Virus record (IMG/VR): IMGVR_UViG_3300037345_000004
Location: 1-30,167 of that record
Direction: 5' to 3' (one strand)
DNA length: 30,167 nt
Origin: a virus
Shown in pieces: positions 2,719 to 27,887 of this stretch. Positions within the stretch are counted from its first letter, which is position 1, and each line of letters opens with the position of its first letter. The notes beneath the pieces are model-generated. The model was not told the DNA's origin. It did no database searches and worked only from the letters and a program-made list of their open reading frames with translations. The position numbers and the translations under genes are program-made.

Positions 2719-2733
2719 ATTATAATTATACCA
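2719..2733 (-). promoter_or_regulatory. Extended -10 promoter, leaderless type
   Basis: The minus strand reads TGGTATAATTATAATATG. The extended -10 (TGG plus TATAAT, 2725-2733) overlaps the last codons of the upstream gene. It is followed by exactly 6 bases and then the ATG of the fibre-like gene, so the expected transcription start falls on the A of the ATG. No ribosome-binding sequence is present. The same arrangement occurs before two other genes in the window. Confidence 0.55.
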
Positions 2734-9774: not shown

Positions 9775-12700
9775 TTAAGGACACCCCTCTAATTCTTCTA
9801 TCGTCAACCTTTTTAATTGTTGACATTACTGCTTGGGCAATTTCATTTGGATTTGCACCTGTCTTAGCATTAACAGTTAATGTGTATGTATTATTATACA
9901 CTGATCCACCAACTGATTCTCCACTATTTATTTTTTTCATGTTATCTACCCCGTAAGAATCTACAGCATACTTGCTCATAACAAATTCTCCAGGAGTCAA
10001 CATTGCTGGCACTGTGTCTGTTCCTTTTGCAAAACCACCCATTGCAAAGTACTTAGGGACTATTCCTCCCTTATAGATATATCCATATTTTGCTTTTCTT
10101 TCAGCAATTATTTGTGCTGATGTTTTTGCTGGTGTAGTTGCTGCTGATGCATTAACCCCTTGCATTGCAGAAACTCTTGCTTTTTCTGCAGCATCTAATC
10201 TTGCATCACTGTACGCCTTCATTTGTGCAGCAATTGAGGCTGCTCCAATAGCGCCACTTTCTTGTGATGCCAAAGCACTTGGGCTAAATACTCCTGACCT
10301 TTTTAAATCTTCTGCGGTTTTATCTGCTGCGGCTTTATCTGCTGCGGCTTTATCTGCTGCGGATTTATCTGCTGTGGCTGGCTCAATGGCAGTTGTAGAA
10401 TTACCTGCTTGGTCGGAAGTTGTGCTTAGAGAGTCTGTCCTTAATACTTGATTTTGATATGAAGAAATAAGTTTTGCATATATATCTATAGCATCTTTCA
10501 TTTCTTTTACAAACTGAGCGCTCTTGACTCTTGCTAGGTCAACAAGGTTTTGAATTCCTTCCCAGGCTTCTCTTGTTTTTCCTAAAACTGTAATTTCTTC
10601 AATAGATGTCTTAAGGGAAAGTTCATTTAGTCTTAAAGTTTCTCTCTTGGGCTCAAGGGTTTTTTCTTCAATGTTAAAAATATCTTCTTGTAATTTTTTA
10701 ATTTCTTCCTCAAGTTGCTTTCTACTCTTTCCATCTTTTGATCTTAATTCTGACAACTCAAAATCTCTAGATTTTTCTACTGCTTCTTTTTGTTTAGTAA
10801 CTGCACCTAATGCTGATTGTGCTCTCATTTCTTGAACGGCACGGGCTGCAGCAGAGATGTCTCCTGAAGTCAAAGCGTCTGCAAGAGTTAGTTGGCCTTT
10901 TTGTTGCTGACTAATAGAAGCATTTGCTTTTTCTACTTCGTCAAGTGCTTCAATTCTTTCGTCATACTTTTTATTAATTTTTTCTTCTTCATCTGCAATA
11001 GACTTAAGGGCTGCTTCTTTGTCATCAATTTCAAATTCTATTGATGATATTTCATTTTCTGCAGTTGTAATGTCCTCAACAAGTTGCTTATTATCAATAT
11101 TAAACTTAAGTTGAAGCCTTGTTTCTTCAACACTAAATGCCTCCATTGCCTGGCTCATACCATTAGTAAATATTTCTTCCATACCAGATATGGTCATTGA
11201 TTTAATCTTAAGTTCTACATTTGCACTGTCTAGTGTTTTTTGTAGTGTTGTTTTAAACTCTTCACTATCAATGCCCAGATTCATTAGGCCATCTTGTAGT
11301 GCTGAATTATTGAGAATAGCATCAATTTGATCAGTATTTAACTTTGATATGTTGTTCCCTAGTCTTGTCAAAAGACTTACTCTAGCATCAAGTTCTTTTT
11401 GTGTTCCGATCAAGGCTTCTGTTGCAGCATACTTATTTTTTGCTTTTGTAGCCTTTTCCCAAGTTTTAACAATTTTTTTAATTTGCTCATCAGATAGTTT
11501 TTTATTTGCAATGGCTGCAGCAAAGGTTGCATCTGCGACTGCTTCCAAAGCAACAGATCCTTCTACTCCTGCAACTCTTAGTCTTGTTAATGCTGTAGTT
11601 TGATCTCCTATTTGACGAGACATTCTTTCTTGATCACTTACAAACTCTCCAAGTTTAATTGATGCTATTGCATCTCCTATGCTTTTTGCATTATCTTTTA
11701 ACTTTATAATGTTACCCTTTTTATCAAACTCAAATAAAGACTTCTTTCTCTTTTCATATTCTTTAGGGTCCATACCCGTTATTAGATCTATTAGGTCTTC
11801 TCCAGCACCTATTTTTCTCATGTCATTTTCGATACCGCTAAATACTTCAATAGTTTTGCTACCGCCAAACAAATTATTAAGTGCTTTTTGTGATGCTGTA
11901 AAGCCTTCAGTTACTTTGATCTGGTTCTTTCTTACATCTCTTAATCTTTTTAATAGGTTATCAAGAGGCGATGAATCTATTTTTGTAGGTTCAGAAGGTG
12001 TAGTTACTCCTCCTTCTTTAGTTGAAATATCTGTTGCAGAGGCTTCTGTAACTTGCTGTGTTACAAATGTAACAAACTCAGAAAAAGTTTTTCCTTGATT
12101 TTTACCACCTTGTTCATTCACCCAGTTTTTATACTGTTCTGTTAAGGATGGATCCCCCTCCAGCCCCATAACAACTTTAAGATTTTGTAAATAAGTTTTT
12201 TGTTGGAGGGGTGGCAGTGTATCAAAATATGCCTGATCTGCTTTTAGTAATTGCATTTCTTCAGATCCTAGTACAGTTGCAGCAACCTCTATTTCAACCT
12301 TTTTGCTTGAATCTAACTTTTCTATAGCATTAAGAGAAGTTTGTAATTTTTCTGCTTCTATTGGATTGCTATTATAATAATTTAAAAGAACGTCTGCACC
12401 AACAACTACGTCAGACTGAGAAATTTTTTGAAATAGTTCTAATTGTTTTTGTGCTTCTTTAGAAGTTTTTGTTTTTATACTAGCAATAAAGGTTGTTGCT
12501 TGCTTTTTGTCTTCAAACATACCGACAATAGCCATCGTCTGGTTAGCAAAAGCACCACCAAATTGCCCAATGATACTAACAACATTTTCAATAGCAGCCT
12601 TGTCCTTGCCAAAAGTATCAAAAATTTCTATCATTTGCATTGGATCTATCTCTCCAGTTGCAAGTTGCATTTTTAATGTGTACTTAATTTCTTCATTAAC

Positions 12701-15700
12701 ACCAGAATCATCAATTAATGTTTTTGCTAATGGGGCTACGTCTTCTAATGCTGTTCCTTCATATTTTTTAGTAATAGATTTATCTACTCCAGTCATTAAT
12801 GCTTTTCTTGTTGCACCTTCCGAAGTTTCAAAGTTTTTTTGGATATCTCCTACTAATAGAGCATTTTCTTTTAAAAGTTTTATTCTGTTTTTTTCATGGT
12901 CTAGTGTTAATGTTTTTGTTTTATTTGTATCTCCTGCAGCCTTAGCAATTTCAAGTTCTTTTTGATATTGCAAATCTAATGAATCTAGCATTTCTTGTTG
13001 TTGCTCTAGTGCAATTTTTTGCATTGCTACTGAAGCACCAGAGGTCTCGCCAATTCTTCTATTTCTATCTTTTCTTCCAAATAGATTTCCTGCTGTTGCT
13101 CCAACGACTGTTCCTATTACTGCTCCTACCTTTAATCCAATGGCAGCACCTACAGCAGTACCAGCAGGTCCAGCCAAAGATCCTATAAGTCCTCCAGCAA
13201 TAAGACCGCCAATGGCACCGATTCCTGCTCCAGCAGCCGTAAAACCACCAATCTTTGCTACGTCTCCTCCAGTGACACCTCCAGCCCTTTTTGCTGCATC
13301 ATTAGAGATATTCATTCTTTCTCTTGTATCTTGCAAAAGTTTTACTCTTACTTCCAAAGGATCTTTTGCTAGATTTTCTCCATTAGGTCCAAGCAATTCT
13401 ATAAGTCTTGCATTTACTTCAATTCCAAAACTATAGTCTCTTAGTTCTTGTCCAATATTAGCGACTATGCTTCGTGCTTGATCTGCAGATAATGCTCCCG
13501 AAGCCACAGCGCTTGCCATCTGATTTACAACTTGATCTTTTGCTGCGGCCATGCCACTATTTTTAACAGTTGACCCAATATTTTTAGTCATTTCTTTTCC
13601 TTGTTCTCCTGCTATAAATGATTGACCAAACGTTGATTTGCCTGTTTGTATTTGAAATGGTGCAAAAGAATCTTTTCTTTTTTTATCCATAATCTCTCCA
13701 GCAGAAACTTTTCCTGCAAAAGTAGAAAGGTTTTTCATTGCATCAGCGCCAGCGCCCATGGCCTCTGTTAACTCTAACGCTGCATCTTGTGCTTTATCAA
13801 ATGCCATTCTTTGATATGCATATGCTGCTACGACCAAACCAACACCAACACCAAGTGCTGCAAACTTATTATTAAGCATTGGCATTATCATTGCTAGTCC
13901 CATAAGAGGCATCATAAGTTTTTGAGATATCTCTCCAAGTTTTCCTGGAGCCATTGAGCCAGCCATAGTGAGTGCTGATGCTGCCATAATTCCACCAGAC
14001 ATGCCCATTCCTGGTCTTCCTCCGCCCGCTATCTTGTTTTGCTTTGCTTGTTCTCTCTTTGCTGCATAACCTCTAACTTTTTCTGTAATATTTTTAGATC
14101 TTGTTGTGGCTTTAGCATTTGCTGCTGCTCGTTCACTAATAATTTTTTGCTGATAGGCAACCTTTGCTGCTATATTGCTTCTCTTCATTTCTGCTTGTGC
14201 ATTACGTCTCATAGACTTTGCATTTGCATCAACTGAACCAGTCCCGTAAAGAGAAGTTCTTGATGCCTGAGCCTTTGCTTGTGTTCTTGCCTCTGCTCTT
14301 TGTCTTTTCTCTATTTGTCTTCTTACAGACTTAGCATTAGCATCTACTGGTCCCGTTCCATAAAGGGCGGTTCTCGATGATGCCGCAGCAGACTGAGAAA
14401 GTGTTGTTCCAATTGTTTGACCAACTTTACCTGCACTCTTTATGGCTGACTTAGCACCCTTTATTACTTCCGCTGCAGTTCCAAAAACTCCATTGCTACC
14501 ACCACTAACCATTGGAGCGTTTGCCGCTCCAGGTATTGTAGTTCCTTTTGGTCCACGCACGTTTCTAACAGATGTTCCTTTTTTAGGGATGGAGGTCATT
14601 CTTGTATCTTTTGAACCTTGACTTGACTTAACTCCAGGTGGAAGCAATTTTGATTTTGGTTTTTTAGTTTTTTCTGTTTTGTCGTCTTGAATAACTTCGT
14701 CTGGCTTTATAGCAATAGATGTATGAAGTGCATGAAGTTTTTTATAATCAACATTTAATCCATCTTTAAGCCGTTTAACCATATCATCGTAGGCTTTTAT
14801 TTCTCCTCTTATTCTTTGTGCTTGTAATGAGTTATCATTGGGATTAGGCTGAACAAGTTTAAAGTCGGCAACTGTTTTTTCTAAGTTGGGAAGAACTCTT
14901 TTAATTTCATCCTTCATTGCTCTATCATATTCAGTTGCGGTCATATTTTTTGCAATGTCTGCTGTTGCATTACCAAACCAGAAAGGTGAACCTCCTGCAC
15001 TATTCCCCTTGACTCCACTTAAATTTGTTTTACCCATTGCAATCATTGAGGCAACATTAGCAAAATCTCTTTTTCCAGATGCTCTATCAAAAACTCCTGC
15101 TGCGCCAGGATCTGCCATAGTGTTTCCACCCAGGTTTCCTTTTTTAAGATCTTTATCTCCCCTAAGATTTGCTGCTACAAGTTGTCTAAAATATTGTTCT
15201 TTTGTAAAAGTCTTAGACATTTTTGATGGATCAAACTTTGAATTAAATGCTGACTCAAGAGCATAAAGAGTTTTGCCAGTGTTAGGATCTACAATTAGTT
15301 TTAATTTTTGTACTGGCGAATCAAGACCATGAACTTTTCTTGCAATCTCTGTTGCTCTTTGTTCTGCAATTGCTGACTTTAAATCTACCATTGGCTTTAC
15401 GTATACTTTTTTACCATCTTGCCTTACATGAATTCCAGAAAGATGTTTTGAATCAACATTACTAAATCCTTTTCCTACACTTAGTTGCTGTTTATAACTA
15501 GTTATTTGAGTTGGAATTGGAATTGGATTCTTTTTCTTAGTTTTTTCTGCTGCAGTCTTTGGTTTTTGAGGTTTTTGACTAATGTTTGGGGTTGTTCCTG
15601 TTCCCATTCTATTCATACCAACGACTGTTCCAGCAGGAACTGACACACCGTTGTATTTTCCAGCAGGAAGGGTTACGCTGGCGGACCTGGTTACCCGCTT

Positions 15701-18457
15701 GCCCTTGCTATTTATTCTTTCATCAAGTTTATAATCTAGTATAAATCCTTTTGCTTTTGCATTTTCAAGAATTTTTATACTTGCTTCTACAGTATTTCCT
15801 AAACCCTTGCCCATATTAAAACGATAGTCAGTTGCGTATAGTTTTTTAGATTGCAGGTATCCTGGATCATTAGCAGGGACTAAGGTTGGAATCTTTTCTC
15901 TATACAACTTGTCTATCAATGAGTCATTTACAACTGGAGACTTGCTTTCTCTTAATAATTTTAAAAATGCTTTATCTAAGTTTTTAGCCTGCACAGGATC
16001 TATATTAGAGGCTTTCCATTTATCTGATCCTCTTTTTTCCCACTCTGCTATAAAGTCTGCTCTGTCTACTCCACCTGTAAGGCTTGTCATTGCTGTATTC
16101 ATTGGTCCAGAAAAATTAAACACTAATCCATGCTTGGTTGTTGTTGTGGCAGGCAAACCTTGAGATTTAAACAGTTGCTCCATAGAAATAAGTTTTAATT
16201 TTTGATCCTGACTCATGTATGGATTGTTTGCTATTACCTCTGATATAGGCTTTGGAGTACTTTTTCCACCTATGTGAGTTTTATTTGTGTCTGCAATCTT
16301 GTTTGGTTTTGTTTTCTTATTATTAATCATATCTTCAATGTTTTCTATGTTATCTGGATCTTGTGCAGCCGATGCTGGAATTACTGCTTCTCCAGCAGTA
16401 AGGAGTGCAGGTACGGTATCTGTGTTACCTACTCCTGGAACTTTGGTTGTTCCTAAGTTGTATCTTTTTATACCCTGGATTTTTCCTGATGGGCTTCTTA
16501 TTGGACCAATGAATCCTGCTTGTGATGAAATTGCTCTTTGATAGGCTATTGCTAAAGCATTTACTGCTGCTGCCTCAGAAGTAAAGGTTTGTCTAAGTCT
16601 TTGGTGAACTTGATCAAGAGATGCAGCAACGGCAGAGGCCTCTAACTGCTCTTGAGTTAAATAGTTTGTTTGCTGTCCAAGAATTTGGGTTGAAGATCCT
16701 GCTCTTTGAAATCCTGATCTCATTGTTGCAAAAAGTTTAATTATGTTTGCAACACCATTTGCAAGCAAACCAAAAGACATAAGGGCAATGGGTCCAACAG
16801 CACCAAGGGCTACAGTAAGTATTGTTATAAACTTTTTACTGCCTTCTCCCAGTCCATTAAACTTGTCTAGGATCTTTGAAACAAACTCAACAATAGGAGT
16901 AAGTGCTTTTAAGAACTGTTCTCCAACTGGAGCAAGCGCAACCTTTAGATCTTCCATAGTTTTCTTAAATTTATAAGTTGTTGTATCTTCAATCTTACTT
17001 AATTCTCTTTCAGATAGAATTGCAAGTTCTTCTGTTGTTGCAGATGCAAGAGTTAATACTCTAGATGCTTGAGTTCCTTGCGCTGTTACGTTTTGAAATA
17101 GTGTAGAAAGTCTTGAGAACTGAAACTTTCCAAATAATTGTTCAATAGCACGAGCACGATTAAGCGGATCAAGTGTCTCTAACGCTTGTGCAAATTCAAC
17201 TACAGTAGACTTTACATCTCCAGCATTTGATTCTACAATTCCATTTATGTTAACTCCAAGACCCTGTAGCATTTTAGATGCTTTTTCAGATGGATTAATT
17301 AATGAAGCAAGACCAGATTTAAGTGCGTTAGCACCTTCTGATGCATTAATTCCACCTTCCTTCATTGCTGTAAGGAAGAAAGCCAAGTCTTCTACATCTC
17401 CACCAAGTTGCTTGACAACTGGTCCAGCCTTTGGAATTGCTATAGTTAAGTCTTCAATAGATACAACAGTTTGGTTTTCTACTGCGTTAAGAAAGTCAAT
17501 TTTTTTAGCAAGGTCTTCTGTTGAAACACCAAATGCATTTGTAACAGAAATTGTAGTTTTTAGTGCATCTTCTTGTTCAACTCCACCAAGAATGGCAAGT
17601 CTTGTTGCTTGTGCAACTTGAGCAGTTAAATCTGCACCCATCTTGCCCATTGCTGCAGCATCTGCTGCCATCTTCATTGTATCTTCTACTGCAACTCCAT
17701 ACTTAGTGTACTCGCTTGCAAGCAGTTGAATCTCTTTAACCATTCTATTAGTTTCTTCTGCTGTTGTAAATAGTTCTCCATAAACTCTTTTAAATCTAAT
17801 CGCCTGCTCTTCAAGTTTCATGAATGTTTTTGCTGCTGCAGTACCAAGATAAATAAGAGGGATTGTAAAACCAACCATCAACTGACGGCCTGCCCACTGG
17901 GTGTTCTTACCAAAGTTTAGAAGTTTTGTTGATCCTTGTGTTAGTAGTTGATTTAAGACCTGTTGTTTTTGTGCTGCTATGGCTGTTTGTGTGCCTAGGT
18001 TTTTCATGTCTAGTGCAAGTGGTCTTACAGCAATTGCTTGAAGGGCTCCATTAGCGCCACGGCCCATCTTAATATATTGGGTTTGAATATCTTTAACACG
18101 CTCTCGTGCTACCTTATTTATTGTTTGAAACTCAGATGCAAACAATCTGCCAAAAGTCTTTGTTGCTGCTCCAGTGTATCTAAAATATTCTCTGGATGTT
18201 AACTTGTTTTTTTCTAATGCATTTGTAAACTGTTCTGTACTTGTGGAAACATTTCGCATAGATGCTTGAAATTGTCCAGTAGCATTTATGCTGTTCATCA
18301 AGTTTTGTGCTTGATTTCCTGCAACCGCATTTGCTGCAGTTCCAGACTTTGACATTTGTGTATGGAAGGCTGATATTTGACGCTGTAACTGCTTTAAACT
18401 TGCTAAAGCCCCAGACGTATTAATATTTACATTAATATTGGATTGAACATCAGCCAT
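9764..18457 (-). CDS. Tape measure protein with inserted kinase-like domain
   Basis: A 2897-residue protein that sets tail length and is ejected at infection. The N-terminal ~530 residues hold the TP901-type tape-measure region (SEYTKYGVAVEDTMKMAADA, then LAFFLTAMKEGGINASEGAN). A hydrophobic segment lies at ~533-580. The motif GNTDTVPALLTAGEAVIP occurs at 677-694 and again as GTDTVPAMLTPGEFVM near 2812-2827, bracketing the rest. In between are a region with kinase-like signatures (~987-1190), a duplicated 20-residue unit, a hydrophobic segment (~1485-1545), a glycine-zipper membrane segment (~1725-1795) and long coiled coils (~2420-2680). An AADKA repeat lies near residue 2700. At about 1.5 angstrom per residue the tail could reach some 400 nm, less any inserted globular parts. 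The ATG follows AGAGGTG. Confidence 0.95.
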   Translation of the reverse strand: MADVQSNINVNINTSGALASLKQLQRQISAFHTQMSKSGTAANAVAGNQAQNLMNSINATGQFQASMRNVSTSTEQFTNALEKNKLTSREYFRYTGAATKTFGRLFASEFQTINKVARERVKDIQTQYIKMGRGANGALQAIAVRPLALDMKNLGTQTAIAAQKQQVLNQLLTQGSTKLLNFGKNTQWAGRQLMVGFTIPLIYLGTAAAKTFMKLEEQAIRFKRVYGELFTTAEETNRMVKEIQLLASEYTKYGVAVEDTMKMAADAAAMGKMGADLTAQVAQATRLAILGGVEQEDALKTTISVTNAFGVSTEDLAKKIDFLNAVENQTVVSIEDLTIAIPKAGPVVKQLGGDVEDLAFFLTAMKEGGINASEGANALKSGLASLINPSEKASKMLQGLGVNINGIVESNAGDVKSTVVEFAQALETLDPLNRARAIEQLFGKFQFSRLSTLFQNVTAQGTQASRVLTLASATTEELAILSERELSKIEDTTTYKFKKTMEDLKVALAPVGEQFLKALTPIVEFVSKILDKFNGLGEGSKKFITILTVALGAVGPIALMSFGLLANGVANIIKLFATMRSGFQRAGSSTQILGQQTNYLTQEQLEASAVAASLDQVHQRLRQTFTSEAAAVNALAIAYQRAISSQAGFIGPIRSPSGKIQGIKRYNLGTTKVPGVGNTDTVPALLTAGEAVIPASAAQDPDNIENIEDMINNKKTKPNKIADTNKTHIGGKSTPKPISEVIANNPYMSQDQKLKLISMEQLFKSQGLPATTTTKHGLVFNFSGPMNTAMTSLTGGVDRADFIAEWEKRGSDKWKASNIDPVQAKNLDKAFLKLLRESKSPVVNDSLIDKLYREKIPTLVPANDPGYLQSKKLYATDYRFNMGKGLGNTVEASIKILENAKAKGFILDYKLDERINSKGKRVTRSASVTLPAGKYNGVSVPAGTVVGMNRMGTGTTPNISQKPQKPKTAAEKTKKKNPIPIPTQITSYKQQLSVGKGFSNVDSKHLSGIHVRQDGKKVYVKPMVDLKSAIAEQRATEIARKVHGLDSPVQKLKLIVDPNTGKTLYALESAFNSKFDPSKMSKTFTKEQYFRQLVAANLRGDKDLKKGNLGGNTMADPGAAGVFDRASGKRDFANVASMIAMGKTNLSGVKGNSAGGSPFWFGNATADIAKNMTATEYDRAMKDEIKRVLPNLEKTVADFKLVQPNPNDNSLQAQRIRGEIKAYDDMVKRLKDGLNVDYKKLHALHTSIAIKPDEVIQDDKTEKTKKPKSKLLPPGVKSSQGSKDTRMTSIPKKGTSVRNVRGPKGTTIPGAANAPMVSGGSNGVFGTAAEVIKGAKSAIKSAGKVGQTIGTTLSQSAAASSRTALYGTGPVDANAKSVRRQIEKRQRAEARTQAKAQASRTSLYGTGSVDANAKSMRRNAQAEMKRSNIAAKVAYQQKIISERAAANAKATTRSKNITEKVRGYAAKREQAKQNKIAGGGRPGMGMSGGIMAASALTMAGSMAPGKLGEISQKLMMPLMGLAMIMPMLNNKFAALGVGVGLVVAAYAYQRMAFDKAQDAALELTEAMGAGADAMKNLSTFAGKVSAGEIMDKKRKDSFAPFQIQTGKSTFGQSFIAGEQGKEMTKNIGSTVKNSGMAAAKDQVVNQMASAVASGALSADQARSIVANIGQELRDYSFGIEVNARLIELLGPNGENLAKDPLEVRVKLLQDTRERMNISNDAAKRAGGVTGGDVAKIGGFTAAGAGIGAIGGLIAGGLIGSLAGPAGTAVGAAIGLKVGAVIGTVVGATAGNLFGRKDRNRRIGETSGASVAMQKIALEQQQEMLDSLDLQYQKELEIAKAAGDTNKTKTLTLDHEKNRIKLLKENALLVGDIQKNFETSEGATRKALMTGVDKSITKKYEGTALEDVAPLAKTLIDDSGVNEEIKYTLKMQLATGEIDPMQMIEIFDTFGKDKAAIENVVSIIGQFGGAFANQTMAIVGMFEDKKQATTFIASIKTKTSKEAQKQLELFQKISQSDVVVGADVLLNYYNSNPIEAEKLQTSLNAIEKLDSSKKVEIEVAATVLGSEEMQLLKADQAYFDTLPPLQQKTYLQNLKVVMGLEGDPSLTEQYKNWVNEQGGKNQGKTFSEFVTFVTQQVTEASATDISTKEGGVTTPSEPTKIDSSPLDNLLKRLRDVRKNQIKVTEGFTASQKALNNLFGGSKTIEVFSGIENDMRKIGAGEDLIDLITGMDPKEYEKRKKSLFEFDKKGNIIKLKDNAKSIGDAIASIKLGEFVSDQERMSRQIGDQTTALTRLRVAGVEGSVALEAVADATFAAAIANKKLSDEQIKKIVKTWEKATKAKNKYAATEALIGTQKELDARVSLLTRLGNNISKLNTDQIDAILNNSALQDGLMNLGIDSEEFKTTLQKTLDSANVELKIKSMTISGMEEIFTNGMSQAMEAFSVEETRLQLKFNIDNKQLVEDITTAENEISSIEFEIDDKEAALKSIADEEEKINKKYDERIEALDEVEKANASISQQQKGQLTLADALTSGDISAAARAVQEMRAQSALGAVTKQKEAVEKSRDFELSELRSKDGKSRKQLEEEIKKLQEDIFNIEEKTLEPKRETLRLNELSLKTSIEEITVLGKTREAWEGIQNLVDLARVKSAQFVKEMKDAIDIYAKLISSYQNQVLRTDSLSTTSDQAGNSTTAIEPATADKSAADKAAADKAAADKTAEDLKRSGVFSPSALASQESGAIGAASIAAQMKAYSDARLDAAEKARVSAMQGVNASAATTPAKTSAQIIAERKAKYGYIYKGGIVPKYFAMGGFAKGTDTVPAMLTPGEFVMSKYAVDSYGVDNMKKINSGESVGGSVYNNTYTLTVNAKTGANPNEIAQAVMSTIKKVDDRRIRGVSLNGR
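10311..10382 (-). repeat. 15-bp tandem repeat in the tape-measure gene
   Basis: On the plus strand, the unit tctgctgcggcttta occurs in full at 10323-10337 and 10338-10352, with one change at 10353-10367. Degenerate copies flank these at 10311-10322 and 10368-10382. It encodes a five-residue Ala-Ala-Asp-Lys-Ala repeat near residue 2700, probably a flexible helix or linker. Because the unit is a multiple of three, slippage would change copy number without breaking the frame. Confidence 0.85.
14204..14377 (-). repeat. Duplicated 20-residue unit in the tape measure
   Basis: The segments at 14204-14263 and 14318-14377 encode two near-identical peptides, SRTSLYGTGSVDANAKSMRR and SRTALYGTGPVDANAKSVRR, spaced 114 bases (38 residues) apart. 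They differ at three residues. They sit in an Ala/Arg/Lys-rich helical region just before the first large hydrophobic segment and look like an internal duplication. Confidence 0.85.
14888..15499 (-). other. HipA/PI3K-like kinase signature inside the tape measure
   Basis: Residues ~987-1190 read like an atypical protein/lipid kinase fold. VYVKP gives an N-lobe lysine at 1021. Glu1032 or Glu1037 sits in the following helix (AEQRATEIARKVHGLDSP). YALESAF at 1065-1071 resembles a hinge. LRGDKDLKKGN at 1098-1108 gives a catalytic-loop pattern Asp1103-x4-Asn1108. GVFDRAS places Asp1124, 16 residues later, as the metal-binding aspartate. The order and spacing match HipA-type kinases as I remember them. 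The segment is hydrophilic and not coiled coil, unlike the flanking tape measure. The assignment is by motif reading only and the domain ends are approximate. Confidence 0.42.
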
Positions 18458-18475: not shown

Positions 18476-18799
18476 TTAGTTATTTACAAGATTGCCAAGT
18501 AGTGAAGCGTCTGAAAGTCTAATTCCAGATGCCTCCTCGACGATCTTGTATACTGTAGGAAGGTCTAGGTTTTCTTCTAGTGCTTCCTTGTCATCTGCCA
18601 ATTCTGGCTTGTATTGTTGCATTGCAATTTGAACGCATTCCATAAGAAGGTTCATTGATTTTTCGTTGTCTTCTGCTACCTTTGCAATATCTTCAAACTT
18701 CTTCATAAATGGACGAAGCAAAGATATCTTGAGTGGTCTTACCTTGATCTTGGTTCCATCGATCAGAGTTACTGTTTTTTCTTCAGTGGCGGCTGCCAT
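18476..18799 (-). CDS. Tail assembly chaperone, short form (G-like)
   Basis: A 107-residue protein just upstream of the tape measure, where chaperones that coat the tape measure during tail assembly are encoded. Landmarks are LID (12-14), PLKI (22-25), IAMQQY (58-63), NLDLPTVY (77-84) and GI (92-93), and it ends in LLGNLVNN. The same landmarks occur at almost the same positions in the next gene upstream, so the two are paralogues. This copy lacks the C-terminal extension and so corresponds to the G-only form. It has its own TGGTATAAT promoter and a strong AAGGAGG site before the ATG. No slippery heptamer is seen near its end, and the tape measure starts only 18 bases after its stop. Confidence 0.85.
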   Translation of the reverse strand: MAAATEEKTVTLIDGTKIKVRPLKISLLRPFMKKFEDIAKVAEDNEKSMNLLMECVQIAMQQYKPELADDKEALEENLDLPTVYKIVEEASGIRLSDASLLGNLVNN

Positions 18800-18807
18800 T
18801 TATTCCT

Positions 18808-18834
18808 CCTTATAAGGTTTAGTCAATTATACCA
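18808..18834 (-). promoter_or_regulatory. Extended -10 promoter and palindromic leader of short chaperone gene
   Basis: The minus strand carries TGGTATAAT at 18826-18834 with no recognisable -35. A short leader of about 20-25 bases follows. It contains the perfect 10-base palindrome CCTTATAAGG (18808-18817), which overlaps the Shine-Dalgarno AAGGAGG. Unlike the leaderless cases, this promoter gives a leader with a strong ribosome site. It lets the short chaperone be expressed independently of the long one. Confidence 0.55.
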
Positions 18835-18857
18835 TAACGCAGGCTTATTTTTTGTTA

Positions 18858-19535
18858 TTAATATTTTTCATAATCTATGCCCATACCAATACCAAACCCT
18901 ACTTTTTCTGCATTTTTACCTTGTAAAGCAAGTATGTCATTGCCACTGGTTGTTGCTCCCTTGCTGAATACTCTTGCTTTCATGTCTTCCCATTCATTTG
19001 AGTTCCCTGAATTTTTATCTAAATCAACACCTTGCATGGCTGCTGCAAACTTTTTGTCACTATAGTCTAGTTCTCTTTTTATTTTAATAGTTGCAGTTAG
19101 TTCTGGCATAGACAAAGATTTTTCTAGTTCTTCATAATCTTTCCATATTCCAATAAGAAATGCTTCTGATTCAAGTTTTGCTAAATCCAATGTATCCCAA
19201 GAAGATCCGCTATCTACTGCTTGAGATTTTACTGGGTCTTCTGATTTTTCATTAATTTTAATACCTGCTGCAATATCTATTACCTCATAGACTGTTGGAA
19301 GGTCTAGGTTATCTTCAAGGTCTTCTACTGTTTTTATGTGTGGGGCATACTGCTTCATTGCAACCAAAGCACAGTTAACTAATACTGATATTGATTCGTC
19401 GTCTGTCTTTGCTTCTTTAATAGTATCAAATATTTTTAAAAACTCTCTAAGATATTTTATTTTAAGTGGGGCAGCACTAATCAAAGTTTCGTCAATAAGG
19501 TAAAAATCTTTTTTTTCATATATACTGGTTGCCAT
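18858..19535 (-). CDS. Tail assembly chaperone, long form (GT-like fused in one frame)
   Basis: A 225-residue protein whose first ~95 residues are a paralogue of the short chaperone (LID 13-15, PLKI 23-26, VAMKQY 58-63, NLDLPTVY 76-83, GI 91-92). A further ~115 residues (SSWDTLDLAKLESEAFLIG ... SMPELTATIKIKREL) resemble the T-type extension that most siphoviruses add by a -1 ribosomal frameshift. Here both parts are in one continuous frame. I start it at the ATG at 19535, six bases after TGGTATACT and with no Shine-Dalgarno. The frame opens 30 bases earlier, but that stretch overlaps the promoter element. It should bind the tape measure and tube subunits during tail assembly. Confidence 0.83.
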   Translation of the reverse strand: MATSIYEKKDFYLIDETLISAAPLKIKYLREFLKIFDTIKEAKTDDESISVLVNCALVAMKQYAPHIKTVEDLEDNLDLPTVYEVIDIAAGIKINEKSEDPVKSQAVDSGSSWDTLDLAKLESEAFLIGIWKDYEELEKSLSMPELTATIKIKRELDYSDKKFAAAMQGVDLDKNSGNSNEWEDMKARVFSKGATTSGNDILALQGKNAEKVGFGIGMGIDYEKY

Positions 19536-19550
19536 AATATAAGTATACCA
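19536..19550 (-). promoter_or_regulatory. Extended -10 promoter, leaderless type, for long chaperone
   Basis: The minus strand has TGGTATACT (19542-19550), then six bases (TATATT), then the ATG at 19535. The predicted transcription start coincides with the start codon and no ribosome site is present. The element begins a few bases after the T-run of the terminator that ends the major tail protein unit, forming a compact terminator-promoter cassette. Confidence 0.55.
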
Positions 19551-19555
19551 AACAG

Positions 19556-19581
19556 AAAAGCCCAACCCCGAAGGATTGAGC
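19556..19581 (-). terminator. Rho-independent terminator with UUCG loop after major tail protein gene
   Basis: The minus-strand RNA forms a 9-bp stem (arms at 19573-19581 and 19560-19568, two G-U pairs) closed by a UUCG tetraloop flanked by C and G, followed by UUUU (19559-19556). It lies 20 bases after the major tail protein stop. It would limit read-through into the chaperone genes, consistent with far higher need for tube protein. Confidence 0.85.
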
Positions 19582-19601
19582 CTCTCATGTATTAAGTTGT
19601 A

Positions 19602-20258
19602 TTATACTGTTAGTGAACGATCTACGATCTTTCCGTATGATGCGTTATCATTTGGAAGAAGACGGAATGATACTTCAAACATTGTTGACTCATCACGCTT
19701 TGCTGATACTGTAACGCTCTCAATTGAGAGTGCACGGTATGCAACATAGATTCTTTCCTTTGGCTCTAGAGAAGAACCAGATCCTGGTCCTACTGCTACT
19801 AGACCACGCTCTAGTGGAACGTCGCCGATATCACCAGCAGACATCCTGAGTGTTGAAACTCCCCCTGCTGTTGCAAGATCTGCGTCATCTGCTGCGATTG
19901 CAACAAGAAGGTTTTCTAGTGTGGCTTCTGCAAAAGCAGTGTTTAGATTAACTGTCATACCTTGCTTGAATAAACGAGCAACGTCGAGAAGTTGATCTAC
20001 TGCTACTTCGCCGAAATCTGGCTGGAATGCTAGTTCCAAACCATTTGATGTGTATCCTACGTTTGTGAATGCATCATCATTTGATAGTGTATCCTTGTAA
20101 GAAGTTGTGGATGCGGTAAATACTGGAAGATCTGTACCTGCGTAGGTATCAGTGATCGATCCAGTTACTGAGTCGTATCCGATTGGGCCTGCGTCATGCG
20201 TAAATAGTGCTGCTGCACCTACGATGATGTTACTACTTGAACCACGGCTGTATGCCAT
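19602..20258 (-). CDS. Major tail (tube) protein
   Basis: A 218-residue, Ala/Ser/Thr/Asp-rich, beta-type protein placed between the tail terminator and the chaperones, the standard position of the tube subunit. The N-terminus MAYSRGSSSNIIVGAAALFTH and the C-terminal MFEVSFRLLPNDNASYGKIVDRSL are typical of actinophage-type major tail proteins, with a central beta-barrel pattern. It has a separate promoter-like element upstream, AGAGGTG before the ATG and a strong UUCG terminator behind it. This insulated unit suits one of the most abundant virion proteins. No Ig-like C-terminal extension is seen. Hexamers should stack to form the tail tube around the tape measure. Confidence 0.85.
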   Translation of the reverse strand: MAYSRGSSSNIIVGAAALFTHDAGPIGYDSVTGSITDTYAGTDLPVFTASTTSYKDTLSNDDAFTNVGYTSNGLELAFQPDFGEVAVDQLLDVARLFKQGMTVNLNTAFAEATLENLLVAIAADDADLATAGGVSTLRMSAGDIGDVPLERGLVAVGPGSGSSLEPKERIYVAYRALSIESVTVSAKRDESTMFEVSFRLLPNDNASYGKIVDRSLTV

Positions 20259-20306
20259 ATTTTCACCTCTTTCATTTTTATTAAAAGGGCTTGTTTCCTC
20301 GTATTA

Positions 20307-20330
20307 ATTATACTACCTATTTATTAGGTA
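20307..20330 (-). promoter_or_regulatory. Promoter-like element and small inverted repeat before major tail protein
   Basis: In the 73-base gap after the tail terminator gene, the minus strand has the 6-base inverted repeat TACCTA/TAGGTA (5-base loop, 20314-20330). It runs into TAGTATAAT (TATAAT at 20307-20312). The -10 is good but lacks the TG of the other elements. About 45 bases of leader separate it from the ATG at 20258, which has its own AGAGGTG. The repeat could be a weak hairpin or an operator. It has no T-run, so I do not call it a terminator. Confidence 0.45.
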
Positions 20331-20331
20331 T

Positions 20332-20853
20332 TTATCCTTGATGCCAGTCGTAATCTATGATGATTTTGTTCCCCGCATAAGTACGGGCTGTTCCAAAGTC
20401 TACAATGTCCCTGGTTTCTTCAAGTTGGTATATCTTAAAGTTGTGAAAAAATACTGGCCTAGATTCATCTGTCCAAGAGGACTCATTTGCTGCTGCCCAC
20501 TCATTAAGATCTTTTGCTGAATCATCTCCGTTGTCAAGAATGTCACTGACCAACTGCTGAATATGAACCATCTGCTCTGTTGGTCCCCAGCCGTTTGCAG
20601 AATCTCCTGTAGCATAAAAATAATATAAAACCTGTTCACATTTTATATATGGAAACGGGGTTCTTCTCATTTTAAACATTCTGTCATAAACACCGAACAG
20701 TCCATTTGATTGAGGAAATGTTTGAGTAAGAGAATCAATGTCAGTTGGAAGTGTTGGGAAAAAGTATGTAGTTCCAGAATCAAAACGCTCATCTACTTTT
20801 GACCCTAAATATTTATTTATTATTGATGGCGGATGATGAATTGTAGCACCCAT
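20332..20853 (-). CDS. Tail terminator protein
   Basis: A 173-residue protein immediately before the major tail protein gene, where siphoviruses encode the factor that caps the finished tail and joins it to the head. The alpha/beta pattern fits: N-terminal helix (PSIINKYLGSKV), central strands with PYIKCEQVLYYFYA at ~69-82, a helix (EQMVHIQQLVSDIL) and C-terminal strands ending IIIDYDWHQG. The ATG overlaps the previous stop in TAATG. Function is assigned from gene order and secondary-structure pattern. I see no single signature residue. Confidence 0.72.
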   Translation of the reverse strand: MGATIHHPPSIINKYLGSKVDERFDSGTTYFFPTLPTDIDSLTQTFPQSNGLFGVYDRMFKMRRTPFPYIKCEQVLYYFYATGDSANGWGPTEQMVHIQQLVSDILDNGDDSAKDLNEWAAANESSWTDESRPVFFHNFKIYQLEETRDIVDFGTARTYAGNKIIIDYDWHQG

Positions 20854-21527
20854 TATGCACCCATTCCTGCGTTAGCAATCCAGCGATATCCTGTTGATAA
20901 GCCTTTTGTCTTGCCCATCTTTTTTCCTGCTTGCATATCTTTTTTATAAACTTGTGGATTTTCAAGATACACGGCTATACCACTAACTCTTAAAAATGCT
21001 TGAGAGAAGTACCTATTAAAAAACATATCAAAAACTTTTTCAAACCCACCCTGAACTTCTGTTCCTCCAGGATTGTCTACTCGAACTTCGCCTTTTGTAA
21101 ATATCATTTCACCGTTATCTTCAAATGCCAAAGCCTGTGCCACTCTTGGACGAATGACAACTGGAATACCTTCTTCCATGATTCTTGCTTTATTGTAAAA
21201 TGGAGTTCTTGATCCATCTTTGATTGATGCTGATTGACTAAATGAAGATCTAAAGGATAGTCCTAAGTTACTTGTAGTATAAGATATGTCATACAATCTT
21301 GCACTTGGGCTTCCTGTTTGATTCCATTCATATACATGATGAAGCATATCTGGATTAACCCTAGCATTTGAGTCTATGAACTCTTTCATTAATTCAACTG
21401 TTTCTAGTCCTACCGTTTTTAAAAATACTGTTTTTCCTTTTTGAACTCCCTCTAAAAATCCAACTGAGTAGTTGACGATATTGTTCATTTCTTTTTTAAA
21501 TTGATTAGAATTAAATACGGCTTTCAT
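20853..21527 (-). CDS. HK97 gp10-like tail-completion / minor capsid protein
   Basis: A 224-residue protein between the head-closure and tail-terminator genes, the place of HK97 gp10-like proteins. An N-terminal helical region (KTVFLKTVGLETVELMKEFI) is followed by basic and beta segments. The core TPFYNKARIMEEGIPVVIRP (~107-126) is of the type seen in this family. The C-terminus is rich in Lys and Gly. The ATG overlaps the previous stop in ATGA, after AGGTGA. It probably acts where the tail meets the connector. The family call is by position and pattern, moderately sure. Confidence 0.65.
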   Translation of the reverse strand: MKAVFNSNQFKKEMNNIVNYSVGFLEGVQKGKTVFLKTVGLETVELMKEFIDSNARVNPDMLHHVYEWNQTGSPSARLYDISYTTSNLGLSFRSSFSQSASIKDGSRTPFYNKARIMEEGIPVVIRPRVAQALAFEDNGEMIFTKGEVRVDNPGGTEVQGGFEKVFDMFFNRYFSQAFLRVSGIAVYLENPQVYKKDMQAGKKMGKTKGLSTGYRWIANAGMGA

Positions 21528-21973
21528 ACATCACCTGTTTGATTTTCTGATCTTCTAATAAGAAGGTTATAAGACTCTACTCTTCCAAATGGGCCAGTAA
21601 ATGGTTCGTATGTTGCGATTTCAAATAAGGTGGCTTTACCAGATCTTGGACCAGAGGTCTCCATGTAGATGATATTTCCTTCTTGGTCTTTAATGTCTGT
21701 AATTAAAATGTTTGTTAATGCATTTTTGCTATTAAGAGAAGATATTCTTATGTCTGATTTTACTCTTCCAACAAGAATTGAGTTTTGAGTAATGTTAACA
21801 TTTGGCTTTACTTCTTCTTTAAGTGCAGATCCTCCAGAACTAAAACTACAGGCAAAGACTCTATCCAAAACCCACTGTTTTTTAATTGCTCCATACTGAC
21901 CTTGTTCAACTATTGGATGGTATACAGATGCTTGCATTGGAAACATAAAATCTGGAGTCTCACAAATAGTCAT
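21524..21973 (-). CDS. Head-closure (stopper) protein
   Basis: A 149-residue beta-rich protein in the slot of the head-tail stopper (SPP1 gp16 / HK97 gp7 type), which closes the connector after packaging and before tail joining. Visible features are an early YHPIVEQGQYGAIKKQW segment and the C-terminal FGRVESYNLLIRRSEN, both beta-type. Start and stop overlap the neighbours (TAATG upstream, ATGA downstream), so the connector proteins are translated as a coupled set. It has no catalytic motif. Assignment rests mainly on size and order. Confidence 0.62.
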   Translation of the reverse strand: MTICETPDFMFPMQASVYHPIVEQGQYGAIKKQWVLDRVFACSFSSGGSALKEEVKPNVNITQNSILVGRVKSDIRISSLNSKNALTNILITDIKDQEGNIIYMETSGPRSGKATLFEIATYEPFTGPFGRVESYNLLIRRSENQTGDV

Positions 21974-22854
21974 TACAATACCCCAAATTTTGTAATAGAC
22001 TTAACATACTGTGAAAGTATCTTGTCTACAATTATATTTCCTGTTCCTTCAAAAAGACCTTTATCAAACTGAATTTTAAATTGATCTGTGTTGTAAGAAG
22101 AAACAAATCTTTTATAGTAATCTAACTTGCCACACTCTATATCGTGAATAAGCATCTCTGTTGCTCTTACAATATTTGATGGAACAAAAGTGTACCCATG
22201 CTCTACAGTTATTACGTAATCCCAAGTTGTTCCAAACCCTCTGTAAACAAATTGTGGATCAAGAGAATCTGATGAGGCTGCTGGAAGAACCAACGGGGAA
22301 GACTCTGCACGATTGATGTTGTCTGTTGACTTTTCTACAATTGCTGTTTTATCTGATGTTACCTCATACTGTCTATCTTCAACTAGTTTATTGTTTTCAT
22401 AAACAGTCAAAACCTTTTTAACATCATCCCAAATAGGAAGGTAGTCTGATCCAGTACCTGTAAAATGTAAAACCTTTTTTCTATAATAAAATCCATCTGG
22501 GACTATTGAGTCGATGATTGCTCTTGCAATTTCTTCGTTTAATGCATATGCTGCTATGTCAGATGCTGTTGTTGCTTTTGTTGTTGGGTCTACATATGGT
22601 CTAAATATCTGATATGTTTCATCGCTTACAATGTCGCCTGTAATCTTAATCTCTACTCTATAAGAGGAGTCGTATCTTGCAGGAAGATTTATTGTTACAT
22701 TATCTCCCGTTGAAAGTTCTGTGAACTCTAAAGTTGAGAAAGAAAGATCCGCCAAATCAGTAATTAAAACTGTTACATCTTCATCTACAATGGATGCAGG
22801 AATAACATAGTCAATATCTATATTTGAATATGGCGGAACTCTCAATATCTCCAT
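21973..22854 (-). CDS. Head-to-tail adaptor/connector protein
   Basis: A 293-residue protein, longer than classical ~100-residue adaptors. The N-terminal ~90 residues are beta-rich (PYSNIDIDYVIPASIVDEDV). The middle contains a short helical part (AAYALNEEIARAIIDSIVP, ~101-119) with the look of an adaptor, then further beta segments and a C-terminal helical end (IIVDKILSQYVKSITKFG). By order it should bind the portal and extend it toward the stopper. The ribosome site is weak and it starts 6 bases after the previous stop, suggesting re-initiation. Confidence 0.62.
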   Translation of the reverse strand: MEILRVPPYSNIDIDYVIPASIVDEDVTVLITDLADLSFSTLEFTELSTGDNVTINLPARYDSSYRVEIKITGDIVSDETYQIFRPYVDPTTKATTASDIAAYALNEEIARAIIDSIVPDGFYYRKKVLHFTGTGSDYLPIWDDVKKVLTVYENNKLVEDRQYEVTSDKTAIVEKSTDNINRAESSPLVLPAASSDSLDPQFVYRGFGTTWDYVITVEHGYTFVPSNIVRATEMLIHDIECGKLDYYKRFVSSYNTDQFKIQFDKGLFEGTGNIIVDKILSQYVKSITKFGVL

Positions 22855-22860
22855 ATTGAA

Positions 22861-23253
22861 TTATCCAAAAGCCTTCTTGACTTCTTCTGGTGTAGCGATG
22901 CGAACATGCCCACGAGTTAGCCATTTTTCTGATTGAGCCTTTGTTACAATATTGTAGCCCTTAGAAATTGCTCCAACTTCTTCCCAACGAACGCTTTTTG
23001 TTGAGTGTAGAGCAACCTTGTCTCCAAGATCTTTGTTTTGCTTAACTTCTCTTTTTGGACCATCTGCTGCCATTGAGCCGATTGCACCTGTTTTGGTAAA
23101 GCCTAGTGATTGAACTGGCTCTTCTGCTGCTGGTGCTTGAACAACTGGCTCTGCTGGTACCTCTACAACTGGTGCTTCTGTAACTTCTTCAACTGGTGCT
23201 GATTCTTCTACAGAACTTGCTTGAAACGGATAGTTATAATTATTATTTTCCAT
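22861..23253 (-). CDS. Capsid-associated conserved protein with acidic Pro-rich N-terminus
   Basis: A 130-residue protein directly after the major capsid gene. Residues ~14-48 are low complexity, rich in Pro, Glu, Val and Ala. The C-terminal ~50 residues form a compact domain (RWEEVGAISKGYNIVTKAQ, then GHVRIATPEEVKKAF). Proteins of this build occur after the capsid gene in many actinophages, but I know of no proven function. Capsid decoration or a connector role is possible. It has its own TGATATAAT promoter and AAGGAGG before the ATG, downstream of a GC-rich hairpin, so its expression is separated from that of the capsid. Confidence 0.68.
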   Translation of the reverse strand: MENNNYNYPFQASSVEESAPVEEVTEAPVVEVPAEPVVQAPAAEEPVQSLGFTKTGAIGSMAADGPKREVKQNKDLGDKVALHSTKSVRWEEVGAISKGYNIVTKAQSEKWLTRGHVRIATPEEVKKAFG

Positions 23254-23271
23254 TGTATCCTCCTTGTTTGT

Positions 23272-23280
23272 ATTATATCA
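23272..23280 (-). promoter_or_regulatory. Extended -10 promoter TGATATAAT
   Basis: The minus strand reads TGATATAAT 18 bases upstream of the ATG at 23253, with AAGGAGG in between. It lies just beyond the hairpin that follows the capsid gene. No -35 hexamer is recognisable, in keeping with extended -10 promoters. It would start transcription of the connector and tail-terminator genes. Confidence 0.5.
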
Positions 23281-23292
23281 TTAAAGTATTAA

Positions 23293-23322
23293 GGGGGACA
23301 GGAGAGTGAACTCCCGCCCCCC
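23293..23322 (-). terminator. GC-rich hairpin after major capsid gene, probable terminator
   Basis: The minus-strand RNA can form a 12-bp stem (arms 23311-23322 and 23293-23304, two G-U pairs) with a 6-base loop. It stands out in this AT-rich DNA and lies about 20 bases after the capsid stop. The following bases (TTAATACTTTAAT) are U-rich but not a clean T-run, so termination may be partial. It may also protect the 3' end of capsid mRNA. Confidence 0.6.
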
Positions 23323-23342
23323 ATTAAAGGTACTGTTACAGA

Positions 23343-24476
23343 TTATGCGTCTGATGCAGCGTCTGCGTATGCAATTGCGTCTTCTTCTTCCCAGTTAAGT
23401 CCGAAGCGTATGAATACAGTATATTCAATTGTATCCTTCTTTGCTACGTACTCACGGTTTACAGTGATGTCACGTTGGAATCCCCATACACGGTTGGCAG
23501 GGAATGTCAAGTCGATATATCCTGCTGGGTAGTAAGGAACTTCCTGAACTTCAATTCCAAGAACACGAGTTGTTCGTGCTCCACCGAATGTCTGTCCGAT
23601 ACCATCAAGGTAGTTCTGACGATTTGCTTGAGTGCTTCCTGGCATTTGACCAGAGAACGCTTCTGCTACTGCATCAGCAAGTGTACCGTTATTCTTAACG
23701 ATTCCACCGAATGCGTCTGTACCTGCATAGAACTTAAGAGTATTCTTAAGCGCACGGTACTTACGTGGCATTGCATTGATGATACCCTGCATTACATCAG
23801 GTGTCCAAGCATTATCTGCTACGGTTACAACTGACTCATGAGCATCTCCATTTGTCTTTACATTGTGGATAAAGCCTGGCATGATTGACAAGAATGAACC
23901 TGTTGAACCATCACCATTAATTGCGAGATCTTCGATATCGTTTGCAAATGCATTAGTCATCAAGCGTACCAAGTGATCTTCTAGAGCGTCACCTTCTACA
24001 CCATCTTCCAATGATTCTGATGTTACTTCCCAATCAAGACGAATCTTCTTGGTAGTAAGTTCAACCTTAGAGAATGTTGCACCTGTGTTTGTGTATGTAC
24101 CAACTGCTTGCGCTGCTGCACGGATTACACGCTCACCGACGTTTACCTTCTCAAGTTCCATAGAATTAGCCTTCATTGTTACGCGACGGCCATCCTTTGC
24201 TAATACTGTTGCATCCCAAACATAGTCGATAAAACGACGTGCCTGCTCAGGGCGCAAAATTCCAGAAGCCGCTGAACCACTAGGGTTAACAGCATTTGCT
24301 CCGCTTGTTGTTCCAAGTGTTGCTGTTGGAATATTACCTAGTGTGTTTGCACCTGGGTTTGATACTCCACCAATACCACCTGATGCGAAAGCACCTTGTC
24401 CCTGGTAAAGTCCTGGTGTTGTTCCACCTAGATCTCCACCAGCGCCTGGCTGGTTTTTGATTATTTCTTCTGACAT
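23343..24476 (-). CDS. Major capsid protein, HK97 fold
   Basis: A 377-residue capsid subunit. I start it at the ATG at 24476, because AGGAGGTGA precedes it at ideal spacing. The frame opens 27 bases earlier but without a ribosome site. Residues ~10-75 are Gly/Ala/Asn-rich and flexible, as in an N-arm. From LRPEQARRFIDYVWDATVL onward the HK97-type order follows: E-loop region, spine helix (VEGDALEDHLVRLMTNAFA), P-domain with AINGDG, and a C-terminal strand set ending FIRFGLNWEEEDAIAYAD. It lies 23 bases after the protease/scaffold gene and before a hairpin and the connector genes. GC content looks higher than in the neighbours, as is usual for highly expressed genes. Confidence 0.9.
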   Translation of the reverse strand: MSEEIIKNQPGAGGDLGGTTPGLYQGQGAFASGGIGGVSNPGANTLGNIPTATLGTTSGANAVNPSGSAASGILRPEQARRFIDYVWDATVLAKDGRRVTMKANSMELEKVNVGERVIRAAAQAVGTYTNTGATFSKVELTTKKIRLDWEVTSESLEDGVEGDALEDHLVRLMTNAFANDIEDLAINGDGSTGSFLSIMPGFIHNVKTNGDAHESVVTVADNAWTPDVMQGIINAMPRKYRALKNTLKFYAGTDAFGGIVKNNGTLADAVAEAFSGQMPGSTQANRQNYLDGIGQTFGGARTTRVLGIEVQEVPYYPAGYIDLTFPANRVWGFQRDITVNREYVAKKDTIEYTVFIRFGLNWEEEDAIAYADAASDA

Positions 24477-24499
24477 ATTGTCACCTCCTAGTGATTTGT

Positions 24500-25078
24500 T
24501 CATTTGAATAGATCGGCTGTTTTGAGGAAACTACCGCCCCATAGGGATTTTTCAACCATTTCAGATTGAGACTGAAAGATATCGCCGATATCTCCAGACT
24601 TTCGGAATGCGGTGTCTGCTTCCACAGCGTCTACTCGTTTTCCAAATTCATTGAATTCATTTGAAACTGCTGCAATATCTTTTGCAACTGCTACGAATGA
24701 ATCTTTAACTGTATCAACATCTACCTTTGAAGACTTAAGAAGTTCTACTTCTGCTTGCAAAGATTTTACTGTTAACATTAGATCGCTAAAGGCTGATGTT
24801 AGATTATTCTTGATTTCAGTAATTGCTTCTACAACTACATCATCTGACTTAGATACATCTGCGTCTGCGTCTGCTACCTTTTCAACTGACTTTGCAACTA
24901 GTGCATCTTCAGTATTTTCTGCAACTGCTTCGTCAGACTTAACAACATCTGTTGTTTCAATCTCTTCTGCTTTTGCAACTTCTTCGGCAACATCTTCAAC
25001 CAGGGCATCTGCCTCTGGAGCGACCACAACATCTTCAATTACGTCTGTTTTTTCAACTTGCGTTTTTGATTTTGCCAT
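24500..25078 (-). CDS. Internal in-frame scaffold protein within the protease gene
   Basis: Met254 of the protease frame (ATG at 25078-25076) is preceded by AAGGAGGT with an 8-base gap from GGAGG, one of the best ribosome sites in the window although it lies within coding sequence. Starting there gives 192 residues, exactly the acidic coiled-coil part and none of the protease. In lambda (C/Nu3) and other phages, scaffolds are made this way in excess over the protease fusion. The helical core (DVVVEAITEIKNNLTSAFS, SLQAEVELLKSS, EFNEFGKRVDAVEAD) suits oligomerisation. Separate production is inferred from the site. Confidence 0.65.
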   Translation of the reverse strand: MAKSKTQVEKTDVIEDVVVAPEADALVEDVAEEVAKAEEIETTDVVKSDEAVAENTEDALVAKSVEKVADADADVSKSDDVVVEAITEIKNNLTSAFSDLMLTVKSLQAEVELLKSSKVDVDTVKDSFVAVAKDIAAVSNEFNEFGKRVDAVEADTAFRKSGDIGDIFQSQSEMVEKSLWGGSFLKTADLFK

Positions 25079-27484: not shown

Positions 27485-27871
27485 TTAGCCTTCGTCCCCG
27501 TACTTAGCAATAGTATCCTTTGCTGCTTGAACTGCTCCAAGGTCATTCATAGATGGTATCAGCCCAGCATTAAGTCTATCAACTTGCTCAGAATATTCTT
27601 CTTCTGAAACCCTGGTTAGTCCTGGCACAAACACTGCTTGACCATCTCCAGGATCTCCATAATGCATCGCTATTTTTTTTAATTCAACAATTCTAGAAAT
27701 ATCGTTTCTGTCTGAGGGAATGTTTAAAACTGAGCCATTTCCATCTGTAAACCACTTGCCGTCAGCCTTTTTATACACATAAAGTCCCCAGTCATAGTTC
27801 TTTTCTATGACCTGCCGTCTAACATTTTGTACAATTGGCTTACCAGTTTTTGGGTTTATTAAAGAATCCAT
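27485..27871 (-). CDS. Conserved small protein before the portal, function unknown
   Basis: A 128-residue soluble protein beginning MDSLINPKTGKPI, with RRQVIEKNYDWGLYVYKKADG and GNGSVLNIPSDRNDI in the first half and a helical, acidic C-terminus. Proteins of this build precede the portal in actinophages I recall, but I know no function. Two in-frame ATGs exist, at 27877 and 27871. I chose 27871 because it lies seven bases after TGGTATAAT, the spacing expected for a leaderless start, whereas 27877 is only one base from the -10. A structural or packaging role is inferred from its place beside the portal. Confidence 0.66.
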   Translation of the reverse strand: MDSLINPKTGKPIVQNVRRQVIEKNYDWGLYVYKKADGKWFTDGNGSVLNIPSDRNDISRIVELKKIAMHYGDPGDGQAVFVPGLTRVSEEEYSEQVDRLNAGLIPSMNDLGAVQAAKDTIAKYGDEG

Positions 27872-27878
27872 AACCATA

Positions 27879-27887
27879 ATTATACCA
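27879..27887 (-). promoter_or_regulatory. Extended -10 promoter TGGTATAAT, leaderless type
   Basis: The minus strand carries TGGTATAAT three bases after the stop of the upstream virion gene. Seven bases separate the hexamer from the ATG at 27871 and no Shine-Dalgarno is present. It would drive the small pre-portal protein and the portal-protease-capsid set. Confidence 0.55.

Follow-up and report, generated by a model that had tools for sequence, protein, structure and literature searches.

Results

Two adjacent genes with a common domain in the tail region

The window, by which we mean the whole stretch of DNA that was analysed, is a virus record of 30,167 bases. On its minus strand, the gene order runs from portal, protease and major capsid protein through several connector-region genes to the major tail protein, a long gene, a short gene and the tape measure protein. 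The major tail protein gene (19602 to 20258, minus strand) matches phrog_2175 (E 3e-29), and it occupies the position at which Streptomyces phages have their annotated major tail protein. The tape measure protein gene (9764 to 18457, minus strand; phrog_10030, E 2e-98) begins 18 nt past the short gene and encodes 2,897 residues, a very long product of which the family matches cover mostly the first 600 to 1,000 residues only.

The two genes between them, placed as in the relatives described below, have one domain (G) in common, and one of them carries an extension (T). The short gene (18476 to 18799, minus strand) encodes a putative G chaperone of 107 residues (phrog_10504, E 2e-20), and the long gene (18858 to 19535, minus strand) a putative GT chaperone of 225 residues in a single uninterrupted frame, a layout found in 172 loci. 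Within the long gene, the G domain (approximately residues 1 to 97; 19245 to 19535, minus strand; phrog_10504, E 1e-19) is followed by an in-frame G/T junction (19209 to 19244, minus strand), in which GACCCA at 19233 to 19238 stands where the frameshifting relatives have GACCCAAAC, and by the T domain (approximately residues 110 to 225; 18861 to 19208, minus strand; phrog_10474, E 1e-15 for residues 130 to 202). The expected client of the T domain is the major tail protein, and that of both G and GT is the tape measure protein.

The first-pass annotation had described two neighbouring genes with a co-linear, similar N-terminal domain, and the alignment bears this out (45% identity over 94 residues, E 6e-24); the accompanying DNA match between 18552-18577 and 19291-19316 was reproduced at 24 of 26 bases. 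Its attribution of an in-frame, T-like extension to the upstream gene alone also holds: phrog_10504 is matched by both proteins, phrog_10474 only by the C-terminal half of the long one, and the extension belongs to the same family as the T domain found in the -1 frame of relatives.

In most long-tailed phages, a ribosomal slip on one gene yields both versions of the tail chaperone. In the window, no in-phase slippery heptamer was found near the former G/T border of either gene, the residual slippery sites being only A/T-rich or out-of-phase runs distant from it, and no alternative frame is open beyond the end of the short gene, in agreement with the original description of that gene. Given the lack of a slippery site and the closed frames, the usual route offers no way to a frameshift product that spans the short gene. 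An Rfam search of the window gave no match.

Predicted fold

The AlphaFold2 models have the same hairpin-plus-helices order in G (pLDDT 77) and in the N-terminal domain of GT (core pLDDT above 80). Since most of the T domain was modelled with a pLDDT below 65, we make no claim on its fold. The top Foldseek match of the G model in the PDB is the HK97 chaperone 2OB9, and it is weak (E 0.55), as is the direct comparison of the two structures (VIA Z 4.5, rmsd 4.6, 80 aligned residues). Among predicted viral structures, the best match is named tail assembly chaperone (E 4e-6). A search of solved structures with the G sequence profile retrieved no relative.

Frameshifting and two-gene relatives

A tblastn search of phage records with the long protein returned about 130 records (132, comprising 127 from Streptomyces and five from Rhodococcus phages; best E 2e-32), many of them annotated as tail assembly chaperone. 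The Streptomyces matches listed fall into two pieces across two adjacent CDS. In the six Stanwilliamsviridae that were read in detail (Streptomyces phages Faust, Coruscant, MulchMansion, StarPlatinum, Annadreamy and BillNye), the gene order is the same, a single G gene is present and T lies in the -1 frame; CCCAAAT is in phase in three of them and CCCGGAA occupies the same place in the others. In Rhodococcus phage Francesca, the annotation joins both chaperone parts.

Overlapping scans of viral metagenome contigs, together with the window and the phage records, gave 408 loci. A fused GT followed by a separate G was found in 172 of these (about 60 sequences at 95% DNA identity), a single G with a -1 frame T in 232, and four were truncated. 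All but one of the 232 single-gene loci have an in-phase slippery heptamer (CCCAAAC in 195, CCCAAAT in 22, CCCGGAA in 10 and CCCAAAA in 4). At the two-gene loci, a CCC-type heptamer near the border was found in none of the 172 when both copies were checked, and incidental heptamers of other types occur in a few. The proposal that duplicated genes take the place of the frameshift agrees with this survey: the sister lineages have a single frameshifted gene, the lineage of the window has two genes. Intermediates, either duplicated yet frameshifting or fused without a second G, were absent from the 408 loci; L033 was considered as a fused-only case and rejected, as this locus ends about 120 nt past GT.

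The sole single-gene relative without a CCC-type heptamer is the Francesca locus (L169, 2477 to 3321), whose G/T overlap reads TGATCCGGGAAAAGCC, and where the shift may occur at GGGAAAA. The G frame is broken in L257, L375 and L309, the first two of which are one contig, most likely by sequencing indels.

Expression signals

The interval between the major tail protein gene and GT holds a hairpin resembling an intrinsic terminator (19555 to 19586, minus strand; 14 pairs, MFE -22.1 kcal/mol, z -6.0). The GT gene is preceded by an extended -10 element, TGGTATACT (19542 to 19550, minus strand), exactly 6 nt 5' of its ATG, and has no Shine-Dalgarno sequence, an arrangement of the leaderless type. 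The short gene has the extended -10 element TATGGTATAAT (18826 to 18836, minus strand) and the Shine-Dalgarno sequence AAGGAGG (18805 to 18811, minus strand). These two contrasting sets of signals, noted initially for the window, are kept throughout the 60 non-redundant two-gene loci: GT has its -10 exactly 6 nt before the ATG in 60/60 and a Shine-Dalgarno sequence in 0/60, while the short G has both the extended -10 and the Shine-Dalgarno sequence in 60/60. The -10 of GT is less perfect than that of the short G. The GT start is therefore best described as putatively leaderless.

In the window alone, terminator-like sites are not rarer than in shuffled sequences, and a generic promoter scan performed no better than on shuffles and listed neither extended -10 site; the case for these two sites is made by their conservation across loci. 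Relatives carry a hairpin of different sequence at the same place, and strong folding was obtained for each of three hairpins that differ in sequence (z -5.9 to -7.0). In the frameshifting relatives, the hairpin past the major tail protein gene is followed by an extended -10 (e.g., TATGCTATAAT), a leader with AGGAGG and then G; among 93 non-redundant frameshifters, the -10 is present in 91, the Shine-Dalgarno sequence in 84 and the leaderless-type spacing in none. The GT gene of the two-gene lineage has retained the hairpin position of these relatives. With 172 occurrences (about 60 of them non-redundant), the layout and its signals go far beyond chance.

Two further TGGTATAAT boxes are present in the window (2718 to 2733 and 27871 to 27886, minus strand), 6 to 7 nt before the ATG of ORFs of 147 and 128 residues, and promoters of the leaderless type may therefore occur repeatedly in this phage. 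They would exist alongside leadered promoters that have a Shine-Dalgarno sequence, as at the short G and at a 130-residue gene starting at 23253.

Codon usage

Codon usage was compared with that of each genome's own major tail protein gene. The short G is closer to it than the N-terminal domain of GT in 56/56 comparisons, and closer than the tape measure gene in 44/44; GC3 shows the G/GT contrast in the same direction in 59/59. In the frameshifting relatives, G is closer than T to the codon usage of the major tail protein gene in 95 of 97 cases. From this contrast it follows that the N-terminal domain of GT, ancestrally part of a highly expressed G, now resembles a gene of low expression. Together, the Shine-Dalgarno sequences (60/60 versus 0/60) and codon usage are, as proxies, in agreement with a large excess of G over GT.

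Measured against the major capsid gene of the window, the highest values were obtained for the major tail protein gene (0.65), the short G (0.62) and the 130-residue gene (22861 to 23253, minus strand; 0.60), and the other genes within 18476 to 24503 (minus strand) have ordinary codon usage. The 130-residue gene may encode an abundant virion protein.

Evolutionary origin of the two genes

In the T-domain tree, 14 two-gene representatives form one clade (99/94) inside the frameshifters, beside the L192 group. In the G-domain tree, the N-terminal domains of GT form one clade (100/100) and the short G proteins another (100/85), and the two are sisters (92/78) inside the frameshifters, a grouping of moderate strength. 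A quick tree built from the N-terminal part of the tape measure protein likewise has the two-gene phages as one clade (SH-aLRT 97). Thus, in the trees of T, G and the tape measure protein the two-gene lineage lies inside the frameshifters, and these trees favour a single duplication plus fusion. The gene order (GT, then G, then the tape measure gene) is compatible with a tandem duplication followed by fusion in the upstream copy and loss of T from the downstream one.

In the major tail protein tree, the two-gene phages fall into two groups, with three of them set apart and a starred branch between, so two origins or recombination remain to be weighed (see Discussion); a single two-gene clade is not rejected for this gene (p-AU 0.247), and the conflict is most simply read as recombination of that gene. 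L371 (3001 to 3650) and L372 (3001 to 3647), both loci of the frameshift type with CCCAAAT and a short overlap of G and T, group beside the two-gene phages in the G tree (94/96) and lie far off in the T tree, a conflict that suggests recombination at the level of domains.

Relative to L192, the nearest frameshifter, the window has 25 additional nt at the junction, which is +1 modulo 3 and is the DNA-level equivalent of the -1 shift of the ribosome. GACCCA, at the place of GACCCAAAC in the relatives, may be what is left of the slip site.

The dN/dS values are low for G (0.05), T (0.09) and the N-terminal domain of GT (0.14), which indicates that both genes are maintained by purifying selection, the values being rough because dS is near or above 1. 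The N-terminal domain of GT evolves faster and the short G slowly.

Discussion

Probable duplication in place of frameshifting

The presence of duplicated G and GT genes without a frameshift, as described in the first-pass annotation, is confirmed, and its reading of them as duplicated chaperones in place of frameshifting is largely supported. By descent, the proteins of the window appear to be tail assembly chaperones that are not produced in the usual way, and both would act as tail chaperones. It is very probable that a frameshifting chaperone gene was duplicated to give a dedicated, weakly expressed GT and a highly expressed G with roles like those in lambda. The ancestor would have had one chaperone gene, making mostly G and a little GT through a -1 frameshift at CCCAAAC, and a tandem duplication would have taken place in the ancestor of an aquatic lineage. 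In the upstream copy, an indel would have put T in frame while the slip site and the Shine-Dalgarno sequence were lost, so that a leaderless gene of low expression, devoted to GT, remained behind a terminator. T and the slip site would also have been lost from the downstream copy, which kept the ancestral type of promoter and the Shine-Dalgarno sequence and, adjoining the tape measure gene, came to be devoted to G and highly expressed. The tape measure protein would then be bound by many G and few GT, with the T of GT recruiting the major tail protein as in lambda. The fuller version of this scenario, in which the whole aquatic lineage replaced one of the best-conserved ribosomal frameshifts of phages by duplication, set the ratio through the promoter and through leaderless versus Shine-Dalgarno starts, and specialised its G domains as abundant and rare forms, is one towards which we lean.

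The reading of the short gene bears directly on this. It might be a paralogue with another role, for instance a regulatory or tape-measure-only factor, with GT alone assembling the tails; the G domains are indeed only 45% identical by now, and that of GT evolves faster. We regard this as very unlikely, considering that the short G is the slow copy, with the ancestral type of promoter, Shine-Dalgarno sequence and codon usage that the main G product would have, and that it directly adjoins the tape measure gene. Moreover, a permanent G-T fusion in TP901-1 gives normal-looking, non-infectious particles (PMC4493119), and since the fused protein alone does not yield infectious phage there, a separate G is to be expected here. 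Somewhat less remote, though still improbable, is that the genes are separate chaperones and the stoichiometry has changed too, with GT at a level similar to or higher than that of G. In actinobacteria, translation of leaderless mRNAs can be efficient; when bacterial genome contigs were searched with GT for a host, no relative emerged. Nevertheless, the codon usage of G is near that of the major tail protein gene and that of GT near ordinary genes in every genome compared, with GC3 in accord, the frameshifting relatives have the same contrast between G and T, and GT combines the less perfect -10 with the lack of a Shine-Dalgarno sequence.

The history of the locus might also be more complex than a single event, through two independent duplications and fusions or recombinational transfer of a two-gene block. 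The major tail protein tree, taken as it stands with its starred branch between the groups, requires two changes. The other three trees each hold the two-gene phages as one group, the major tail protein data are compatible with such a group, and the leaderless signal and gene order are common to all of them, so that we consider multiple origins unlikely. As the contigs come from metagenomes, and as three frameshift loci have indels inside G, an assembly or sequencing artefact has to be considered as well; its probability is negligible, as the arrangement recurs in 172 loci, some 60 of which fall below 95% identity, and the copies have diverged, the signals are conserved and dN/dS is well under 1.

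Very diverse long-tailed phages retain the G/GT frameshift, and whether they do so for the slip itself or only for the ratio it sets is difficult to ask. What seems to be a natural exchange, in a clade with frameshifting phages as its closest relatives, provides matched pairs for separating ratio, timing and co-translation. It also offers a route from a recoded gene to dedicated genes in which signals, codon usage and selection can be read from sequence. Annotators, in turn, have here a set of phages on which a frameshift should not be forced.

Comparison with known systems

Duplications of selenophosphate synthetase, said to have been described by Mariotti et al. in 2015, reportedly split a recoded gene with two products into dedicated duplicates. 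The parallel is an evolutionary analogy only, concerning stop-codon recoding in animals and unrelated proteins. Many phage genomes carry one or two unjoined chaperone genes, which have been taken mainly as incomplete annotation (PMC10885494). In cluster EA Microbacterium phages, two chaperone ORFs are described as separately expressed without an evident frameshift (PMC7302621); the G domain is not said to be duplicated in these, and the likeness to the window is one of description only. A paper on duplicated chaperone genes replacing the frameshift was not found in our partial coverage of the literature.

The HK97 chaperone (PDB 2OB9) is similar to G in length, with a weak structural match and no sequence similarity. 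In lambda, gpG is the short protein and gpGT adds a T extension to the same domain, as predicted for the products of the window, and the coding region immediately precedes the tape measure gene; both attach to the tape measure protein, and the major tail protein is brought in by T (PMC5009743). The lambda proteins arise at about 30:1 through a low-level -1 frameshift, whereas the window has two promoters and two genes, and no sequence similarity between the two systems is shown. The closest counterparts are the chaperones of the Stanwilliamsviridae, which have G and T domains homologous to those of the window and the same order of major tail protein, chaperone and tape measure genes. A single gene encodes them, and T is reached through a -1 shift at CCCAAAT or CCCGGAA, whereas in the window the same domains are distributed over two genes without a slip site.
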